A DNA stretch of 49,555 nucleotides from Gallionella sp. (lineage in GTDB: Bacteria; Pseudomonadota; Gammaproteobacteria; Burkholderiales; Gallionellaceae): contig JANXXH010000042.1 in assembly GCA_025350705.1 (NCBI GenBank), forward strand, positions 1-49,555. The letters are read 5' to 3'. Made by a program: the position numbers and the translations under genes. Within the stretch, counting starts at the first letter, position 1, and every line of letters begins with the position of its first letter. Positions 2,340 to 47,220 of the stretch are shown here, in pieces. The notes under the pieces are model-generated. The model did not search any database and was not told where the DNA came from. It was given only the letters and a program-made list of their open reading frames with translations.

Positions 2340-2409
2340 TACATTATTCCAAGCACATCACATCTTTCCATACACATCACATTTTTTCCAATCGCATCAC
2401 ATCTTCTCC
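2335..2409 (-). repeat. Four-copy degenerate tandem repeat across the argS stop and SPOR start
   Basis: Read on the minus strand, four units of 19-20 bases follow each other: GGAGAAGATGTGATGCGATT, GGAAAAAATGTGATGTGTAT, GGAAAGATGTGATGTGCTT and GGAATAATGTAATGAG. The first contains the last argS codons and stop; the last contains the ATG of the SPOR gene. Every unit carries a GGA(A) ribosome-binding-like sequence followed by ATG. Confidence 0.75.
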
Positions 2410-4172
2410 GGCGCGCTCACACCCAGCAAGGCCAATCCGTTATGTATCACCTGCGCCACTGCGGCAATCAATGCCAGCCTTGCCAATTTGATCGCTTCGT
2501 TCTCGACCAGAAAGCGCGAGGCATTATAGTAGCTGTGGAAACTGGCTGCCAACTCCTTCAGATAAAAGGCGATCAGGTGCGGCGCCAATTCCAGCGCGGC
2601 GTTTTCGATCACCTGCGGAAAATCGATCATCTGTTGCAGCAGAGCCGTTTCGTATTCGCTGTCCAGCAGGCTGACATTTGCTTCCAGCAAAGCCTTGTGT
2701 TCAGCGCCCCATTGAGCGAGCACAGCGCTGATGCGGGCGTGGGCATACTGGATGTAATACACCGGGTTCTCGTTGCTTTTAGACTTCGCCAGATCGATGT
2801 CGAACACCAGTTGCGAATCCGAATGGCGCGCTGCAAGGAAATAGCGCGTCGCGTCGCAACCCACCTCGTCGATCAAATCGCGCAGCGTGACATAGCTGCC
2901 CGCACGCTTGGATATCTTTACCTCTTCGCCGTTGCGCAATACCGTCACCATCTGGTGCAACACATAATCCGGCCAGCCTTTGGGGATGCCTACATCCAGC
3001 GCCTGCAAGCCCGCGCGCACACGGGTGATGGTGGAGTGATGATCCGCGCCCTGCTCGTTGATGACGCGCACAAAGCCGCGCCGCCACTTGTCCAGATGAT
3101 AGGCGATGTCCGGCACGAAATACGTGTAAGTGCCATCGCTCTTGCGCATCACGCGATCCTTATCGTCGCCGAAATCGGTAGTGCGCAACCACAATGCATC
3201 GTCCTGCTCATAGGTGTGGCCGCTGGCGATCAACTTCTTGACCACTTCGTCCACCTTTCCATCGGTATATAGCGCAGACTCCAGCGCAAACACATCAAAG
3301 TTCACGCCAAAGGCGCGCAGATCGATATCCTGTTCGCGGCGCAGATAAGCCACTGCGAAGTGGCGGATCGCCTCGGCATCATTCACATCGCCGGAGGCCT
3401 TTACATGCTGGTCGTGCGCCTCCGACACGTTACTGGCGTAGCCAGCCGATTGCGGGAGGAGGCGCGGAGACGGCCCTCCCGCACCTGGCGCTTGCGCGAA
3501 CCGTGTCGGTCCGTCTGCCTCCACCATCTCTTGTGCCAGATATGCCTGAGCAACATCCAAGATGTAATCGCCGCGATAACCCGCTTCCGGCCAGCTCGGG
3601 TCGTCCGGCGTGATACCCTTGCAGCGCAATTGCACCGACAGCGCCAGATTATCGATCTGCACGCCCGCATCGTTGTAGTAAAACTCACGCGTCACATTCC
3701 AGCCTGCCGCGTGCAACACGCTGCACAAACAATCGCCCACCGCTGCACCGCGACCGTGGCCCACATGCAGCGGCCCGGTTGGATTCGCCGAAACGAACTC
3801 CACATCCACCTTGCGTCCTGCACCGAGATGGATGTGGCCGTAACCTGCGCCAGCTTGCAACACGCCGCGCACCACGCCACGCTTGGCCGCAGTGGTGATG
3901 AACACATTGATGAATCCTGCCCCGGCGATCTCCAGCTTCTCGATGAAATCAGATACCGGCAATGCCGCGATCAACGCCTGCGCGATTTCGCGTGGCGGTT
4001 TACGCAACGGCTTGGCCAGCTGCATCGCCAGATTGCAGGCGTAATCGCCATGCGTTGCCAGCTTGGGACGCTCGATGAGTATCTCGATCCCTCCCGCGTC
4101 GGGAACGACCTCGCGCAATGCCTGCGCGAACAATTCGGACAAATGGGATTTGAAATTCAAGACGACAGACAT
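2397..4172 (-). CDS. argS: Arginyl-tRNA synthetase with an in-frame mobile insert
   Basis: Class I aminoacyl-tRNA synthetase charging tRNA-Arg; cytosolic and essential. Seen: the N-terminal additional domain, the HIGH-type motif in [14 protein letters not shown] (about residues 128-141), the KMSKS-like [12 protein letters not shown], and a C-terminal anticodon-binding DALR domain. Length is 591 residues, about 33 longer than usual. The excess is a Gly/Pro/Ser-rich stretch at residues 217-251 ([13 protein letters not shown]... [12 protein letters not shown]), encoded by the repeat element at 3413-3522. The rest of the frame is intact, so the enzyme probably tolerates it in a surface loop. The ATG is preceded by AAGGTGAGG, and an extended -10 promoter lies about 27 bases upstream. 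Confidence 0.97.
3413..3522. mobile_element. In-frame palindromic insertion element in argS
   Basis: The insert has inverted ends CCGACACGTT (3422-3431) and AACCGTGTCGG (3499-3509). It carries the core AGCCAGCCGATTGCGGGAG (about 3440-3458) and CCTCCCGCAC. Near-identical 11-mers flank it: CGTGCGCCTCC at 3413-3423 and CGTCTGCCTCC at 3512-3522, 9 of 11 matching. The repeat-to-repeat distance is 99 bases, exactly 33 codons, which accounts for the excess length of ArgS. Related copies lie in gltD and amgK. Confidence 0.8.
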
Positions 4173-15130: not shown

Positions 15131-16746
15131 TTAGCGAGGCAGTACCGATGATCCCATTAAAAATTCGTCAACAGAGCGTGCGCACTGGCGGCCTTCGCGT
15201 ATCGCCCATACCACCAGCGATTGCCCGCGACGCATGTCGCCTGCGGCGAATACCTTGCCCTTGCTGGTGAGGTAACTTTCCGTGTCGGCCTTGGTGTTGC
15301 CGCGCGCGTCCTTTTCCACACCGAAGGCATCCAGCACCTTCTGCTCCGGGCTGACGAAGCCCATTGCCAGCAATACCAGATCGGCTTTCATCTCGAATTC
15401 GCTGCCGGCGATCTCGTTCATCTTGCCGTCTTTCCATTCCACGCGCACCGCGCGCAGTTTCTCGACCTTGCCGTTGCTGCCGATGAATTCCTTGGTGGCG
15501 ATCGCCCAGTCCCGGTTACAGCCTTCTTCATGCGAGCTGGAGGTGCGCAGCTTCATCGGCCAGTTCGGCCACACCAGGGATTTGTTTTCCTTCTCCGGAG
15601 GACGCGGCATCACTTCGAATTGCGTGACCGACAATGCGCCGTGGCGATTCGAGGTGCCCACACAATCGGAGCCGGTGTCGCCACCGCCGATCACGATCAC
15701 ATGTTTACCGGCGGCAGAGATCGGATTCCTGCCGTCGCCCGCCACTTCCCGCGACACGTTACTGATAGAACTACTAGCCATTCGACTAGGCGAGCCAACA
15801 ACGCTCGCCAAGTCGCTGGTTATGGCGGAGCCAGCCGATTGCGGGAGCGGGTGTGAGGAGGCCATTCCCGCCCCGGAAGCTTCGCTACGCCGTCTCATGG
15901 CCTCCACTTCCTTGTTCTGCGGGATCAGGAATTCCAGCGCGAAATGAACGCCTTTCAATTCGCGTCCGGGAACCGGCAAGTCACGCGGCGCTTCTGCGCC
16001 GCCAGCTAATATTACCGCATCGAATTTCTTCAGCAGTTCCCCGGGACTGATGGCCTTCTTCGCGTCGTTGGCGACGTTCTTTGCAGGCGAATCCTTGCCG
16101 ATGAACACCGATGTTTGAAACTCCACGCCCTCGGCCTGCATCTGCGCCATGCGCCAGTCGATCAAGCGCTTGTCGAGTTTGAAGTCGGGAATGCCGTAAC
16201 GCATCAAACCGCCGATGCGGCTGTTCTTCTCGAACACCGTCACGCTATGCCCCACGCGCGCCAATTGTTGCGCAGCTGCCAAGCCTGCCGGGCCGGAACC
16301 GACTACGGCAACTTTCTTGCCGGTCTTGTTCGCTGCGGGCTGAGGTACCACCCAGCCGTTCTCGCCGCCCTTGTCGATGATCGCGTGCTCGATGGACTTG
16401 ATGCCCACCGCGTTGTTGTTGATGTTCAGCGTGCAGGCCGCTTCGCAGGGCGCGGGGCAGATGCGTCCGGTGATCTCCGGAAAGTTGTTGGTGGAGTGCA
16501 ACACGTCGAGCGCTTCGCGCCAGTTGCCGCGATACACGAGATCGTTCCAGTCAGGGATGATGTTGTTGACCGGACAGCCGCTGATGCAGAACGGGATGCC
16601 GCAATCCATGCAGCGCGCACCCTGAAACTTGGCCTGCTCGTCGTTCAGGTGCAGCACGAACTCCTGGTAGTTCTTGCGCCGCTCCGCCACGGGCAGGCTG
16701 GCTTCGTTGATGCGCATGTACTCCATGAAACCGGTTGGCTTGCCCA

Positions 16747-16747
<1 letters not shown>
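15131..16747 (-). CDS. gltD: Glutamate synthase small subunit with an in-frame mobile insert
   Basis: NADPH-dependent beta subunit of glutamate synthase; passes electrons through FAD and [4Fe-4S] clusters to GltB. Seen: N-terminal cluster motifs [17 protein letters not shown] and CPAPCEAAC, the FAD-binding [13 protein letters not shown] (about 150-162) and the NADPH-binding [12 protein letters not shown]. The protein is 538 residues, about 50 more than usual. The excess is at residues about 281-335, where [14 protein letters not shown]... LPQSAGSA... SNVSREV is encoded by the element at 15737-15911. The rest is intact. Its ATG overlaps the gltB stop (TAATG), with GGGGAGGC upstream, indicating translational coupling. 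Confidence 0.97.
15737..15911. mobile_element. In-frame palindromic insertion element in gltD (long form)
   Basis: Shares GCGACACGTTACTG at one end (15751-15764) and the core GAGCCAGCCGATTGCGGGAG (about 15828-15847) with the argS element. Flanks are near-direct repeats: GCCCGCCACTTCC at 15737-15749 and GGCCTCCACTTCC at 15899-15911, 11 of 13 matching, 162 bases apart (54 codons). Compared with argS it has about 60 extra bases, including the stem GGCGAGC/GCTCGCC (15789-15795, 15803-15809). The other end has lost the clear GTGTCG terminus. Confidence 0.78.
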
Positions 16748-36656: not shown

Positions 36657-36758
36657 GAATGATGTGAATCATTCCACGTTTCTCCTCCCTGAGCGTGCGT
36701 CTTAACTCTTGTTAAGACTTTGCCCCGGCCTACCTCCCCTTGGCTGGGGCATTTTTTT
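36657..36758 (+). ncRNA. Probable small regulatory RNA between hemB and engB (Spot 42/ErsA position)
   Basis: About 102 nt. Seen in order: hairpin GAATGAT/ATCATTC (36657-36663, 36668-36674); CACG (36675-36678) pairing with CGTG (36694-36697) to present the loop TTTCTCCTCCCTGAG, whose CU-rich part is complementary to Shine-Dalgarno sequences; a perfect 8-bp hairpin GTCTTAAC/GTTAAGAC (36699-36706, 36711-36718); and a terminator. A sigma-E-like promoter precedes it. It is antiparallel to engB, with the terminator facing the engB stop. Spot 42 (spf) in enterobacteria and ErsA in Pseudomonas lie at the engB (yihA) 3' side in the same orientation, as I recall. Function as a trans-acting regulator is inference. 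Confidence 0.7.
36721..36758 (+). terminator. Rho-independent terminator of the small RNA
   Basis: Ten-base-pair stem TGCCCCGGCC (36721-36730) with GGCTGGGGCA (36742-36751), one G-U pair, an 11-base loop, then seven T. The T run is on the plus strand only, so it serves plus-strand transcription, although no protein gene reads in that direction here. Confidence 0.85.
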
Positions 36759-46119: not shown

Positions 46120-47220
46120 ATGCAACGCCAGCAACAACTTATCGGATGGCTGCACAGCCTTTTCCCCAACGAGAAATTTGCCATAGCGCCCGCTTCGGCA
46201 GATGCAAGCTTCCGCCGCTACTTTCGCGCCAGTTTCGAAAATGCCGGTTGCGACACGTTATTGACGAAACTAACCGATTACGGGAGCAACCGCCTCGCCG
46301 CCCCTCCCGCACCAGGCGGCTCCACCGCACCGTGTCGGGGCTGCACTTTGATCGTGATGGATGCCCCGCCGCAGCATGAGGACTGCCGCCCGTTCCTGCA
46401 CGTGGCCAGGTTATTCGAAGATGCCGGAGCGCATGTTCCGCACGTGCATGCGCAAGACCTGAAACAAGGTTTCCTGCTGCTGTCAGACCTCGGCAACACC
46501 ACTTACTTGCAAGCCCTGCAGGACGGGAACGCTGATACCGCGAAAGAACTTTATGGCGCGGCAACCGATGCACTGATCAAAATCCAGCTTGCCTCGCGCG
46601 AAAACGAATTGCCGCCTTATGACGAAGCCCTGCTGCTGCGCGAGATGCGCCTGTTTCCGGAGTGGTATATCGCCAAACATCTTGGCGTCACTCTCAGCGA
46701 AGCGCAGAACGCCAAACTGGAAACCGTGTTCGCGCGCATCATCGCCAACAACCTCGCTCAACCTAAAGTGTACGTGCATCGCGACTATCACTCGCGCAAC
46801 CTGATGGTAACCGATCCCAACCCCGGCATCATCGACTTTCAGGATGCCGTATACGGCCCAATCACTTACGATCTCGCCTCGTTGTTCAAGGATGCTTACA
46901 TTCACTGGGAAGAAGCAAAAATAATTGATTGGTTGATACGCTATTGGGAAAAAGCGCGCAAGGCTGGCCTGCCGGTGGCCGATGATTTCTCCGTGTTCTA
47001 CCGCGATTACGAATGGATGGCCGTGCAGCGTCATCTCAAGGTGCTGGGCATCTTTGCGCGCCTGTATCACCGCGACGGAAAGGATGGCTACCTGAAAGAC
47101 CTTCCGCTGGTGATGGCGTATTTGCGCGCTGCCTGTGTCCGCTACATCGACCTCAAGCCGCTGCTGAATCTGCTCGACACATTGGAGCCACAAGACAGCA
47201 AAGAGGGTTACACATTTTGA
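46120..47220 (+). CDS. amgK: N-acetylmuramate/N-acetylglucosamine kinase AmgK with an in-frame mobile insert
   Basis: Aminoglycoside-phosphotransferase-fold sugar kinase; with MurU it recycles cell-wall MurNAc to UDP-MurNAc, bypassing de novo synthesis, as known from Pseudomonas. 366 residues. Seen: ASADASFRRYFR near the N-terminus, VMDAPPQHEDCRPF, the catalytic loop VHRDYHSRNLM and the metal-binding IIDFQDAVYGP. Residues about 43-74 (the stretch from CDTLL to TAPCRG) are extra and encoded by the repeat element; without them ENAG joins CTLIVMD, as in relatives. Divergent from lptD with 69 bases between. Confidence 0.93.
   Translation: MQRQQQLIGWLHSLFPNEKFAIAPASADASFRRYFRASFENAGCDTLLTKLTDYGSNRLAAPPAPGGSTAPCRGCTLIVMDAPPQHEDCRPFLHVARLFEDAGAHVPHVHAQDLKQGFLLLSDLGNTTYLQALQDGNADTAKELYGAATDALIKIQLASRENELPPYDEALLLREMRLFPEWYIAKHLGVTLSEAQNAKLETVFARIIANNLAQPKVYVHRDYHSRNLMVTDPNPGIIDFQDAVYGPITYDLASLFKDAYIHWEEAKIIDWLIRYWEKARKAGLPVADDFSVFYRDYEWMAVQRHLKVLGIFARLYHRDGKDGYLKDLPLVMAYLRAACVRYIDLKPLLNLLDTLEPQDSKEGYTF
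46244..46344. mobile_element. In-frame palindromic insertion element in amgK
   Basis: Ends GCGACACGTT (46250-46259) and CACCGTGTCGG (about 46328-46338), core CCGATTACGGGAG (about 46275-46287) and CCTCCCGCACC (about 46303-46313), all shared with the argS element in the same order. Flanks CCGGTTGC (46244-46251) and GGGGCTGC (46337-46344) are a weak direct repeat, 5 of 8, 93 bases apart (31 codons). Confidence 0.75.

Follow-up and report, generated by a model that had tools for sequence, protein, structure and literature searches.

The segment that interrupts argS in the window (the whole stretch of 49,555 nucleotides of Gallionella DNA analysed here) is one copy of a dispersed palindromic repeat, which we call family A, that lies in frame within conserved proteins and whose short middle is complementary to the sequence on either side of it. 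We consider it somewhat probable that family A represents a family of non-autonomous, mobile two-hairpin elements which duplicate about 14 bp of target on insertion and whose stems are afterwards kept complementary, probably by template-switch copying.

A full copy consists of two inverted half-units, H1 (34 nt) and H2 (usually 31–32 nt), separated by a middle of 19 (or 18) nt. The core measures 85 bp, the half-units read GACACG...GCGGGA and TCCCGC...CGTGTC, and in the 114 parsed copies they lie in inverted order, forming terminal inverted repeats. The middle begins with the reverse complement of the 8 nt immediately preceding H1 and ends with that of the 8 nt immediately following H2. Each half-unit is enclosed by a stem of 8–9 bp made of flank and middle, and the arms of these stems vary widely among copies but covary with the middle. 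The covarying arms formed by the middle and the two flanks, the 14 bp register, the pairing at the level of DNA and a second family nested in the first are points on which the sequence-only reading that preceded this analysis was silent.

Copies in the window

The sequence-only reading had claimed a segment common to argS, gltD and amgK, and this was borne out: the largest direct-repeat family of the window comprises exactly three places, 3423–3490, 15812–15879 and 46251–46318, which lie in these three genes. The 12-mer CGATTGCGGGAG is in itself no evidence, since with two mismatches allowed it is not rarer than chance (eight found, 7.3 expected); the longer match is evidence.

The gene argS (arginine–tRNA ligase) lies on the minus strand at 2397–4172 and encodes 591 residues, including an insert of 33 residues. 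The profile TIGR00456 spans residues 9–591 above its cut-off, and Pfam matches are present on both sides of the insert. The core of the element occupies 3424–3507 (84 nt, GACACG...GTGTC), with the flanks GGTCGTGCGCCTCC and GGTCCGTCTGCCTCC. Read on the plus strand, it consists of H1 at 3424–3457 (34 nt, GACACGTTACTGGC-gta-GCCAGCCGATTGCGGGA, conserved across 77 aligned copies), the 19 nt middle at 3458–3476 and H2 at 3477–3507 (31 nt, TCCCGCACC...CCGTGTC, placed by the 77-copy alignment). H2 is inverted relative to H1. The last 8 nt of TGGTCGTGCGCCTCC (3409–3423) form stem arm a and pair in all eight positions with the first 8 nt of the middle (3458–3465); the first 8 nt of GGTCCGTCTGCCTCC (3508–3522) form stem arm b, to which the last 8 nt of the middle are complementary at seven positions of eight. 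On the basis of this pairing and of the alignment with 23 empty argS sites, 3409–3423 and 3508–3522 are assigned as the left and right copies of a target of about 15 bp. The direct repeat of nine matches in 11 bases that had been noted around the insert is present, but it is only part of this longer duplication of roughly 14–15 bp.

The length of 99 bases, or 33 codons, given earlier for the argS insert agrees with the net insert of 99 bp measured against the 23 empty sites. The host protein had been described as about 33 residues longer than its family, and protein alignment places exactly 33 extra residues between VEAD and DQH. The structure predicted for ArgS is poor (mean pLDDT 53); the insert falls within a low-confidence stretch, residues 219–255, between two predicted strands. 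The closest chain in the PDB aligns with ArgS only at either side of the insert.

The gene gltD (glutamate synthase small subunit; minus strand, 15131–16747) matches TIGR01317 above its cut-off in two stretches. It carries a family-A element at 15753–15896 (plus strand), in which H1 (15753–15846) is split by a nested hairpin and is followed by the middle at 15847–15865 and H2 at 15866–15896. The nested hairpin, a member of a second family (family B), occupies 15765–15824 on the plus strand, and with 60 nt, or 20 codons, it is in frame. In L063 the gltD orthologue carries this family-A element but lacks the nested hairpin.

The third host, amgK (N-acetylmuramate/N-acetylglucosamine kinase; plus strand, 46120–47220), scores 408 bits with NF045759, below the cut-off of 550, and matches PF01636 (APH) above its cut-off. 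Its element has an 85 nt core at 46252–46336 (plus strand) with both stems paired at seven positions of eight. Judged from its own flanks, this copy shows no target duplication (0/6 and 2/6 matching bases). We also note a match to the Rfam anti-hemB RNA (RF02837; 63.4 bits) at 36673–36758 (plus strand) of the window.

Presence and absence at orthologous sites

A protein search with ArgS gave matches in 35 of the 37 same-genus genomes. Thirty argS loci were taken for comparison, of which 25, including that of the window, could be aligned as DNA near the site; the five others were more divergent and unalignable. The window and one other genome (G025, locus L166) are filled at the same base and the remaining 23 sites are exactly empty, which is the precise presence and absence that had been proposed as a test of mobility.

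Comparison of the flanks of all parsed copies yielded 81 close-spaced filled/empty comparisons involving 30 copies, some of them at tandem or partly filled sites. The net insert, taken as the length of the core plus the spacing, is 99 or 102 bp for twelve copies (L001, which is that in argS, L002, L006, L026, L036, L066, L069, L074, L099, L117, L119 and L130), all of which have a spanning open reading frame (ORF). Against one more diverged relative the net insert of L119 is 96 bp, and that of L065 is 93 bp in a diverged comparison. The inserts in genes are thus a multiple of three, as the sequence-only reading had expected, apart from one poor comparison, that of L010 with L148, in which identity is 64% on one side and the net insert would be 89 bp. 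Copies that are seemingly intergenic (L067, L092 and L033) have net inserts of 96 or 98 bp. At one site L134 (5569–5666) has H1 followed directly by the right arm where L099 (5569–5671) has the full element; as read from the two sequences, L134 appears to be a clean loss of the middle and H2 relative to L099.

The insert could be explained without mobility by a coding repeat of ancient origin that gene conversion has spread, or by a set of convergent palindromes, and the high G+C content and weakly conserved arms are in keeping with this. Such an origin is exceedingly improbable given that the same 34 nt core is found at dozens of unrelated loci, several of which have exactly empty orthologues.

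Dispersal

A blastn search with positions 3413–3522 located 17 places in the own genome at E ≤ 0.00305, the query itself included, the best other copy showing 88% identity over 95 bases (E = 2.8e-29). By blastn, 24 of 61 genomes have matches. A covariance model built from 77 copies, with at most 108 candidates scored per genome, matched in 23 of the 37 same-genus genomes, with 82 matches in G013, 61 in G016 and 43 in G000; many places are counted on both strands because the element is palindromic. The dispersed copies that the sequence-only reading had asked for are therefore present in number, and the outcome it named as contrary, a segment found in every ArgS with no copies elsewhere, is excluded.

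Thirteen of 200 sampled genomes of the order matched at E ≤ 1e-6, and they belong to six genera. Fifteen of the 17 order-wide loci that were printed have a paired left arm by eye; the other two were misplaced in extraction. A pattern scan of named genomes returned at least 116 stretches, and 68 of the 80 pattern matches listed bear the names Gallionella, Sideroxydans, Ferrigenium, Gallionellales/-aceae or Nitrosomonadales. One copy used as query against phage and plasmid records gave no match at E ≤ 1e-5. The core is present in four viral contigs, of which three probably hold the same copy, as their scores are equal. No PHROGs match was found for the ORF of 302 residues that covers the core in L160 and L163, nor any Pfam match for that of L160.

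Host proteins and reading frame

Among the 80 ORFs spanning the 80 non-redundant copies, 30 of the longer ones were chosen by hand and scanned. Pfam domains flank the insert on both sides in 23 of these, 17 on the first scans and six (L028, L120, L112, L081, L155 and L044) after a separate scan of the part preceding the insert, also above cut-off. A further five (L062, L058, L086, L012 and L002) have a domain on one side only, with a match below cut-off on the other side of L086 and a weaker one on that of L062; two (L038 and L160) have a Pfam match on neither side. The two-sided hosts include UvrA, 2-oxoglutarate dehydrogenase E1, HrpA, UvrD (two), RecG (two), ArgS, YhdP, MurC, CysN, fumarase C, glucose-6-phosphate isomerase, MurG, EarP, Aat, DapF, HemD and a GalU-type nucleotidyltransferase. 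The names HrpA, Aat and GalU are putative, being our reading of the Pfam domains. NCBIfam profiles match MurC, MurG, glucose-6-phosphate isomerase, DapF and CysN above their cut-offs and FumC, the ORF of which is cut, below.

Sixteen of the 23 supported ORFs read the element in one frame, in which the peptide ends ...SNVS or GNVS; another five use a second frame, and the remaining two a third. The main frame contains stops in six of the 80 copies. The frame that contains stops in all 80 copies is used by none of the 23. In genes, only insertions that keep the frame, are free of stops and lie at tolerant sites would survive, so that the element would persist as a translated, harmless peptide. 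We infer its 'selfish' character.

Stem pairing

Pairing of the stems was assessed for 107 of the 114 parsed copies, reduced to 80 by flank similarity. On average 7.1 and 7.6 of eight bases are paired in the two stems, compared with 4.4 and 4.5 when the flanks are permuted (0/2000). The paired fraction in the right stem is 0.91–0.97 for bases 1–8, 0.69 for base 9 and 0.05 for base 10, and in the left stem it is 0.74–1.0, 0.44 and 0.11, respectively. A subfamily with the left arm CACATCCCGC is bulged and scores 5/8. In an alignment of 77 copies 95.5% of cells are paired and there are 347 double changes, compared with 100 in shuffles; when the register is slid, 29–54% of cells are paired.

The outer stems comprise 1164 Watson–Crick cells, 19 G–U cells and 70 others. 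The 19 G–U cells among the 89 that are not Watson–Crick are close to the 18.6 expected without any preference. This lack of G–U tolerance argues for complementarity that is set or read at the level of DNA rather than for selection acting on a folded transcript, and the sequences indicate that it is at the DNA level, not that of RNA, that the pairing is kept. The two well-formed stem-loops, and the location of some copies at gene starts (L032 and L035), might suggest an RNA element whose hairpins are retained for the fold and function of a transcript, such as a regulator, a terminator or a splicing or bypassing signal. Besides the intolerance of G–U pairs, we found no Rfam match at gathering thresholds in the three copies of the window or in those of L032, L097, L117 and L166. 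The element also occurs in either orientation in unrelated genes, and it maintains a stop-free frame through the 23 supported ORFs, which bypassing or splicing would not need. An RNA function is in our view very improbable, and we rejected it on the G–U counts and the Rfam result.

Copies with alike flanks show how the stems change. In 59 such pairs, which are not independent of each other, 24 complementary double changes were counted against 21 single ones; we estimate that independent random changes at the rate of the single ones would give far fewer than one double change. In-gene examples of double changes occur in murG (L030 compared with L068) and in fumC (L042 compared with L229, matched by their flanks only). 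Five stem pairs differ together between L067 and L092, which may be paralogous because their flanks belong to a dispersed repeat.

Proposed target duplication and origin of the stem arms

Duplication of the target was examined using covariance-model coordinates. From 173 usable copies 87 non-redundant ones were obtained, of which 12 (tandem or subfamily C) were set aside and 75 were tested. Over 18 tests of class by spacing, the signal peaks at 14. In 13 of the 42 copies with an 85 nt core, the host bases at this spacing match the opposite arm in at least five of six positions on one side or both, compared with 3.4 expected (0/1000). The signal is thus that of a minority (13/42), and it is usually confined to one side. 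Spacing 12 is also raised in this class (11 compared with 6.5, p = 0.023), and counting copies with a match on at least one side gives no excess at 13 or at 15–17, although the left side taken by itself shows a slight rise at 16 (p = 0.011). In the 84 nt class four copies match at spacing 14, where 1.3 are expected (p = 0.003), but the three at spacing 15 are no clear excess (1.6 expected, p = 0.2), yet several in-gene copies of this class need a spacing of 15. No duplication signal was found in the 83 nt class (eight copies). An earlier automatic parse with fewer copies gave a weaker target test that was significant in one class only, with no signal in the class with a short H2. Target duplication is clear in argS and in some other copies, and the 14 bp register is significant in one class.

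A correlation between the arms and the H2 interior (Mantel r = 0.39, 0/1000) indicates that the arms move at least partly together with the element. Copying of the arms purely from each target is insufficient in view of this link to the lineage of the element.

The mechanism that we propose has three parts. The core would be moved by some enzyme, probably as folded single-stranded DNA, and its insertion would duplicate about 14 bp of target (in genes sometimes 15 bp), as the register described above supports but does not prove. The inner halves of this duplication would become the outer arms of the stems. After insertion, template switching by a polymerase within each hairpin may copy one arm onto the other, a step suggested by the patterns of change, and this copying would keep stem and middle complementary while both drift. 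The stems could also be kept complementary by selection on mobile copies, and the 21 single unpaired changes found beside the 24 double ones speak against the proposed mechanism.

The main rival to this mechanism is insertion directed by a guide or by homology, in which the arms travel with the element and a target resembling them is picked by the 14 nt junction b.a, in which a central GC is frequent, or by the complementary 19 nt middle. Such an element might be a circle that integrates by its junction, or might carry a guide that pairs with the target. The link between arms and lineage is consistent with such guidance, as is the observation that targets in relatives are sometimes arm-like before insertion. 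Examples of the latter are argS (GGTCGTCCGCCTCC in relatives), ispE (ATAGCCGTCCGGCC), L099 (in L070 GCGGCTGC, with the right arm and middle both reading GCGACTGC) and L148. In several copies (L010, L053 and L056) the host sequence on one side matches an arm that is common in the family. In addition, the tandem copies in L097 and L054 share 12–14 arm bases. Many copies, however, have no resemblance between host and arm, the excess could also stem from true target duplication, and the host-matching arms of L086, L120 and L117, which are rare by eye, look captured rather than chosen. We regard guided insertion as rather unlikely. Duplication followed by rewriting is favoured because of the covariation, but the two can both be true. 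A further idea, to which we give somewhat less than an even chance, is that the middle is a 19 nt imprint complementary to the place where the element has inserted, and that it either serves in the choice of targets or is rewritten to suit each new site by copying within the hairpin. Family A would then be a mobile coding hairpin that keeps a record of its target sequence or is guided by it.

Family-A copies lie in tandem or close together in L097, L054/L046, L064, L256 and L117. The 12–14 bases of arm sequence shared by neighbours in L097 and L054 suggest unequal exchange, or a junction into which insertion took place more than once.

Search for a mobiliser

A resident RAYT (Y1) transposase moving the elements as a REP/BIME family would fit the occurrence of Y1_Tnp genes in 32 of the 37 same-genus genomes and the resemblance of inverted pairs of hairpin half-units to REP dimers. 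In the own genome there is also a lone hairpin about 1.15 kb from a Y1 gene (L223), its loop like a worn half-unit and its stem of 7–8 bp complete. Inspection of two sets of 30 and 24 loci, with flanks of up to 1.5 kb, showed no Y1 gene with family-A half-units on both sides. Loose half-unit matches were seen in four of the 30 (L195, L196, L212 and L223) and in none of the 24; those of L195 and L212 lack stem arms, and that of L196 resembles that of L195. Three element-bearing genomes of 98–99% completeness (G006, G062 and G072) are without any Y1 match, whereas G003, G015 and G032 have Y1 genes and no element. There is also no GTAG tag, the element ending in GACACG/CGTGTC. On the flanks and the presence and absence we judged RAYT to be an improbable mobiliser. 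The lone hairpin of L223 (317–345) reads GTCGTGC...GCACGAC, has a loop like a worn H2 and stands near the only Y1_Tnp match of the own genome. Among the matches listed from a search of the fetched loci for half-unit pairs lying further apart, no convincing autonomous parent was found.

Nested hairpins and variant copies

With positions 15772–15831 as query, family B gave 42 matches in the own genome at E ≤ 0.01, itself included. Within family-A copies this hairpin of 60 nt always interrupts H1 at one and the same position. At three host loci (gltD, the argS of G025 in L166, and L039 compared with L038/L141) orthologous family-A copies differ by its presence, which where measured (gltD and argS) is in frame, so that a hairpin is nested in a hairpin inside a protein. 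Other hairpin inserts, for example ACCCGCAAGGAGTACGC..., are nested at other positions of the family-A copies in L083, L017/L020, L139 and L064, as though other small repeats used the family-A hairpins to land in.

Some copies have a lone or replaced half-unit. In L073, L078/L138, L082, L145 and L089 the second half-unit is unlike H2 and the second stem, of 7–9 bp, is almost or fully perfect; the loops in these copies may have been replaced or captured. A subfamily with the arms GCACCTCC/ATAACCGC (in L033 ATGGCTGC) is found in L032 (1500–1601), L035, L117 (6393–6494), L135 and L033, seemingly at gene starts. The opposite strand of its arm in L032 and L035 reads GGAGGTGCGGTTATG, which is like a ribosome-binding site and start codon.

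Comparison with known systems

Rickettsia palindromic elements are about 100–150 bp in size. As described in the available text of PMC10969869, they (RPE-1 and others) are palindromic repeats that lie in frame within unrelated protein genes and are translated. Family A is likewise a palindromic repeat of about 100 bases in frame within unrelated protein genes. The likeness to these elements drawn in the sequence-only reading is therefore supported functionally, by a dispersed palindromic repeat in frame within conserved proteins. It is a likeness of function: the sequence-only reading had noted that the sequence is different, and family A comes from a different lineage and differs in its two hairpins, in the covarying, variable outer arms formed by the flanks and the 19 nt middle, and in its 14 bp register.

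Sideroxydans, one of the genera named in the pattern scan, is presumably the 'S. lithotrophicus' of the literature on tagged REPs. The available part of that account (PMC3733652) names this species among the CGTC-positive ones. It describes CGTC- and GTAG-tagged REPs as short palindromes, often inverted dimers, some of them inside ORFs that include tRNA synthetases and repair genes, and states that CGTC repeats have no known transposase. A CGTC-tagged REP is defined there by a stem of 8–9 bp, a loop of 4–5 nt, a CGTC, TGTC or CCTC tag outside the stem and a CCA tail (PMC3733652). Like the CGTC repeats, family A comprises short palindromes in inverted pairs, often intragenic, for which no transposase was found. 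Unlike them, it has loops of 31–34 nt, GACACG/CGTGTC motifs inside the stems and stems that include flanking sequence, and it falls outside this definition. The GTAG tag and the repeats flanking a Y1 gene that distinguish GTAG-tagged REP/RAYT systems are likewise missing. With bacterial MITEs it shares its short length, the lack of a coding gene of its own, inverted ends and, in a minority of copies, what reads as a target duplication; it differs in that its middle is complementary to the flanks and that no parent insertion sequence was found.

Template switching has been described as creating and maintaining hairpins with arms kept complementary (PMC8794818), and coding palindromes, inverted repeats within coding genes, are reported from the mitochondria of Nematomorpha (PMC6649704); the available portions of these two sources contain nothing on a mobile bacterial element with target-derived arms. 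Among the matches listed from the open-licence literature, in which the per-species figure for CGTC repeats was not covered, we found no description of family A or of pairing between arms, middle and flanks. The earlier claim of a new example of selfish coding DNA holds for the family and its anatomy only, as in-frame palindromic repeats of free-living bacteria have already been published (PMC3733652, available part).

Family A extends in-frame selfish palindromes from the obligate intracellular Rickettsia, and from scattered REPs, to free-living iron oxidisers related to Gallionella, where numerous copies lie in enzymes, among them ArgS, MurC, MurG, FumC and UvrD. Because its middle and flanks covary in Watson–Crick fashion, it offers a natural system in which to test how short palindromes that lack a transposase move, and whether template switching keeps hairpins complementary in genomes.
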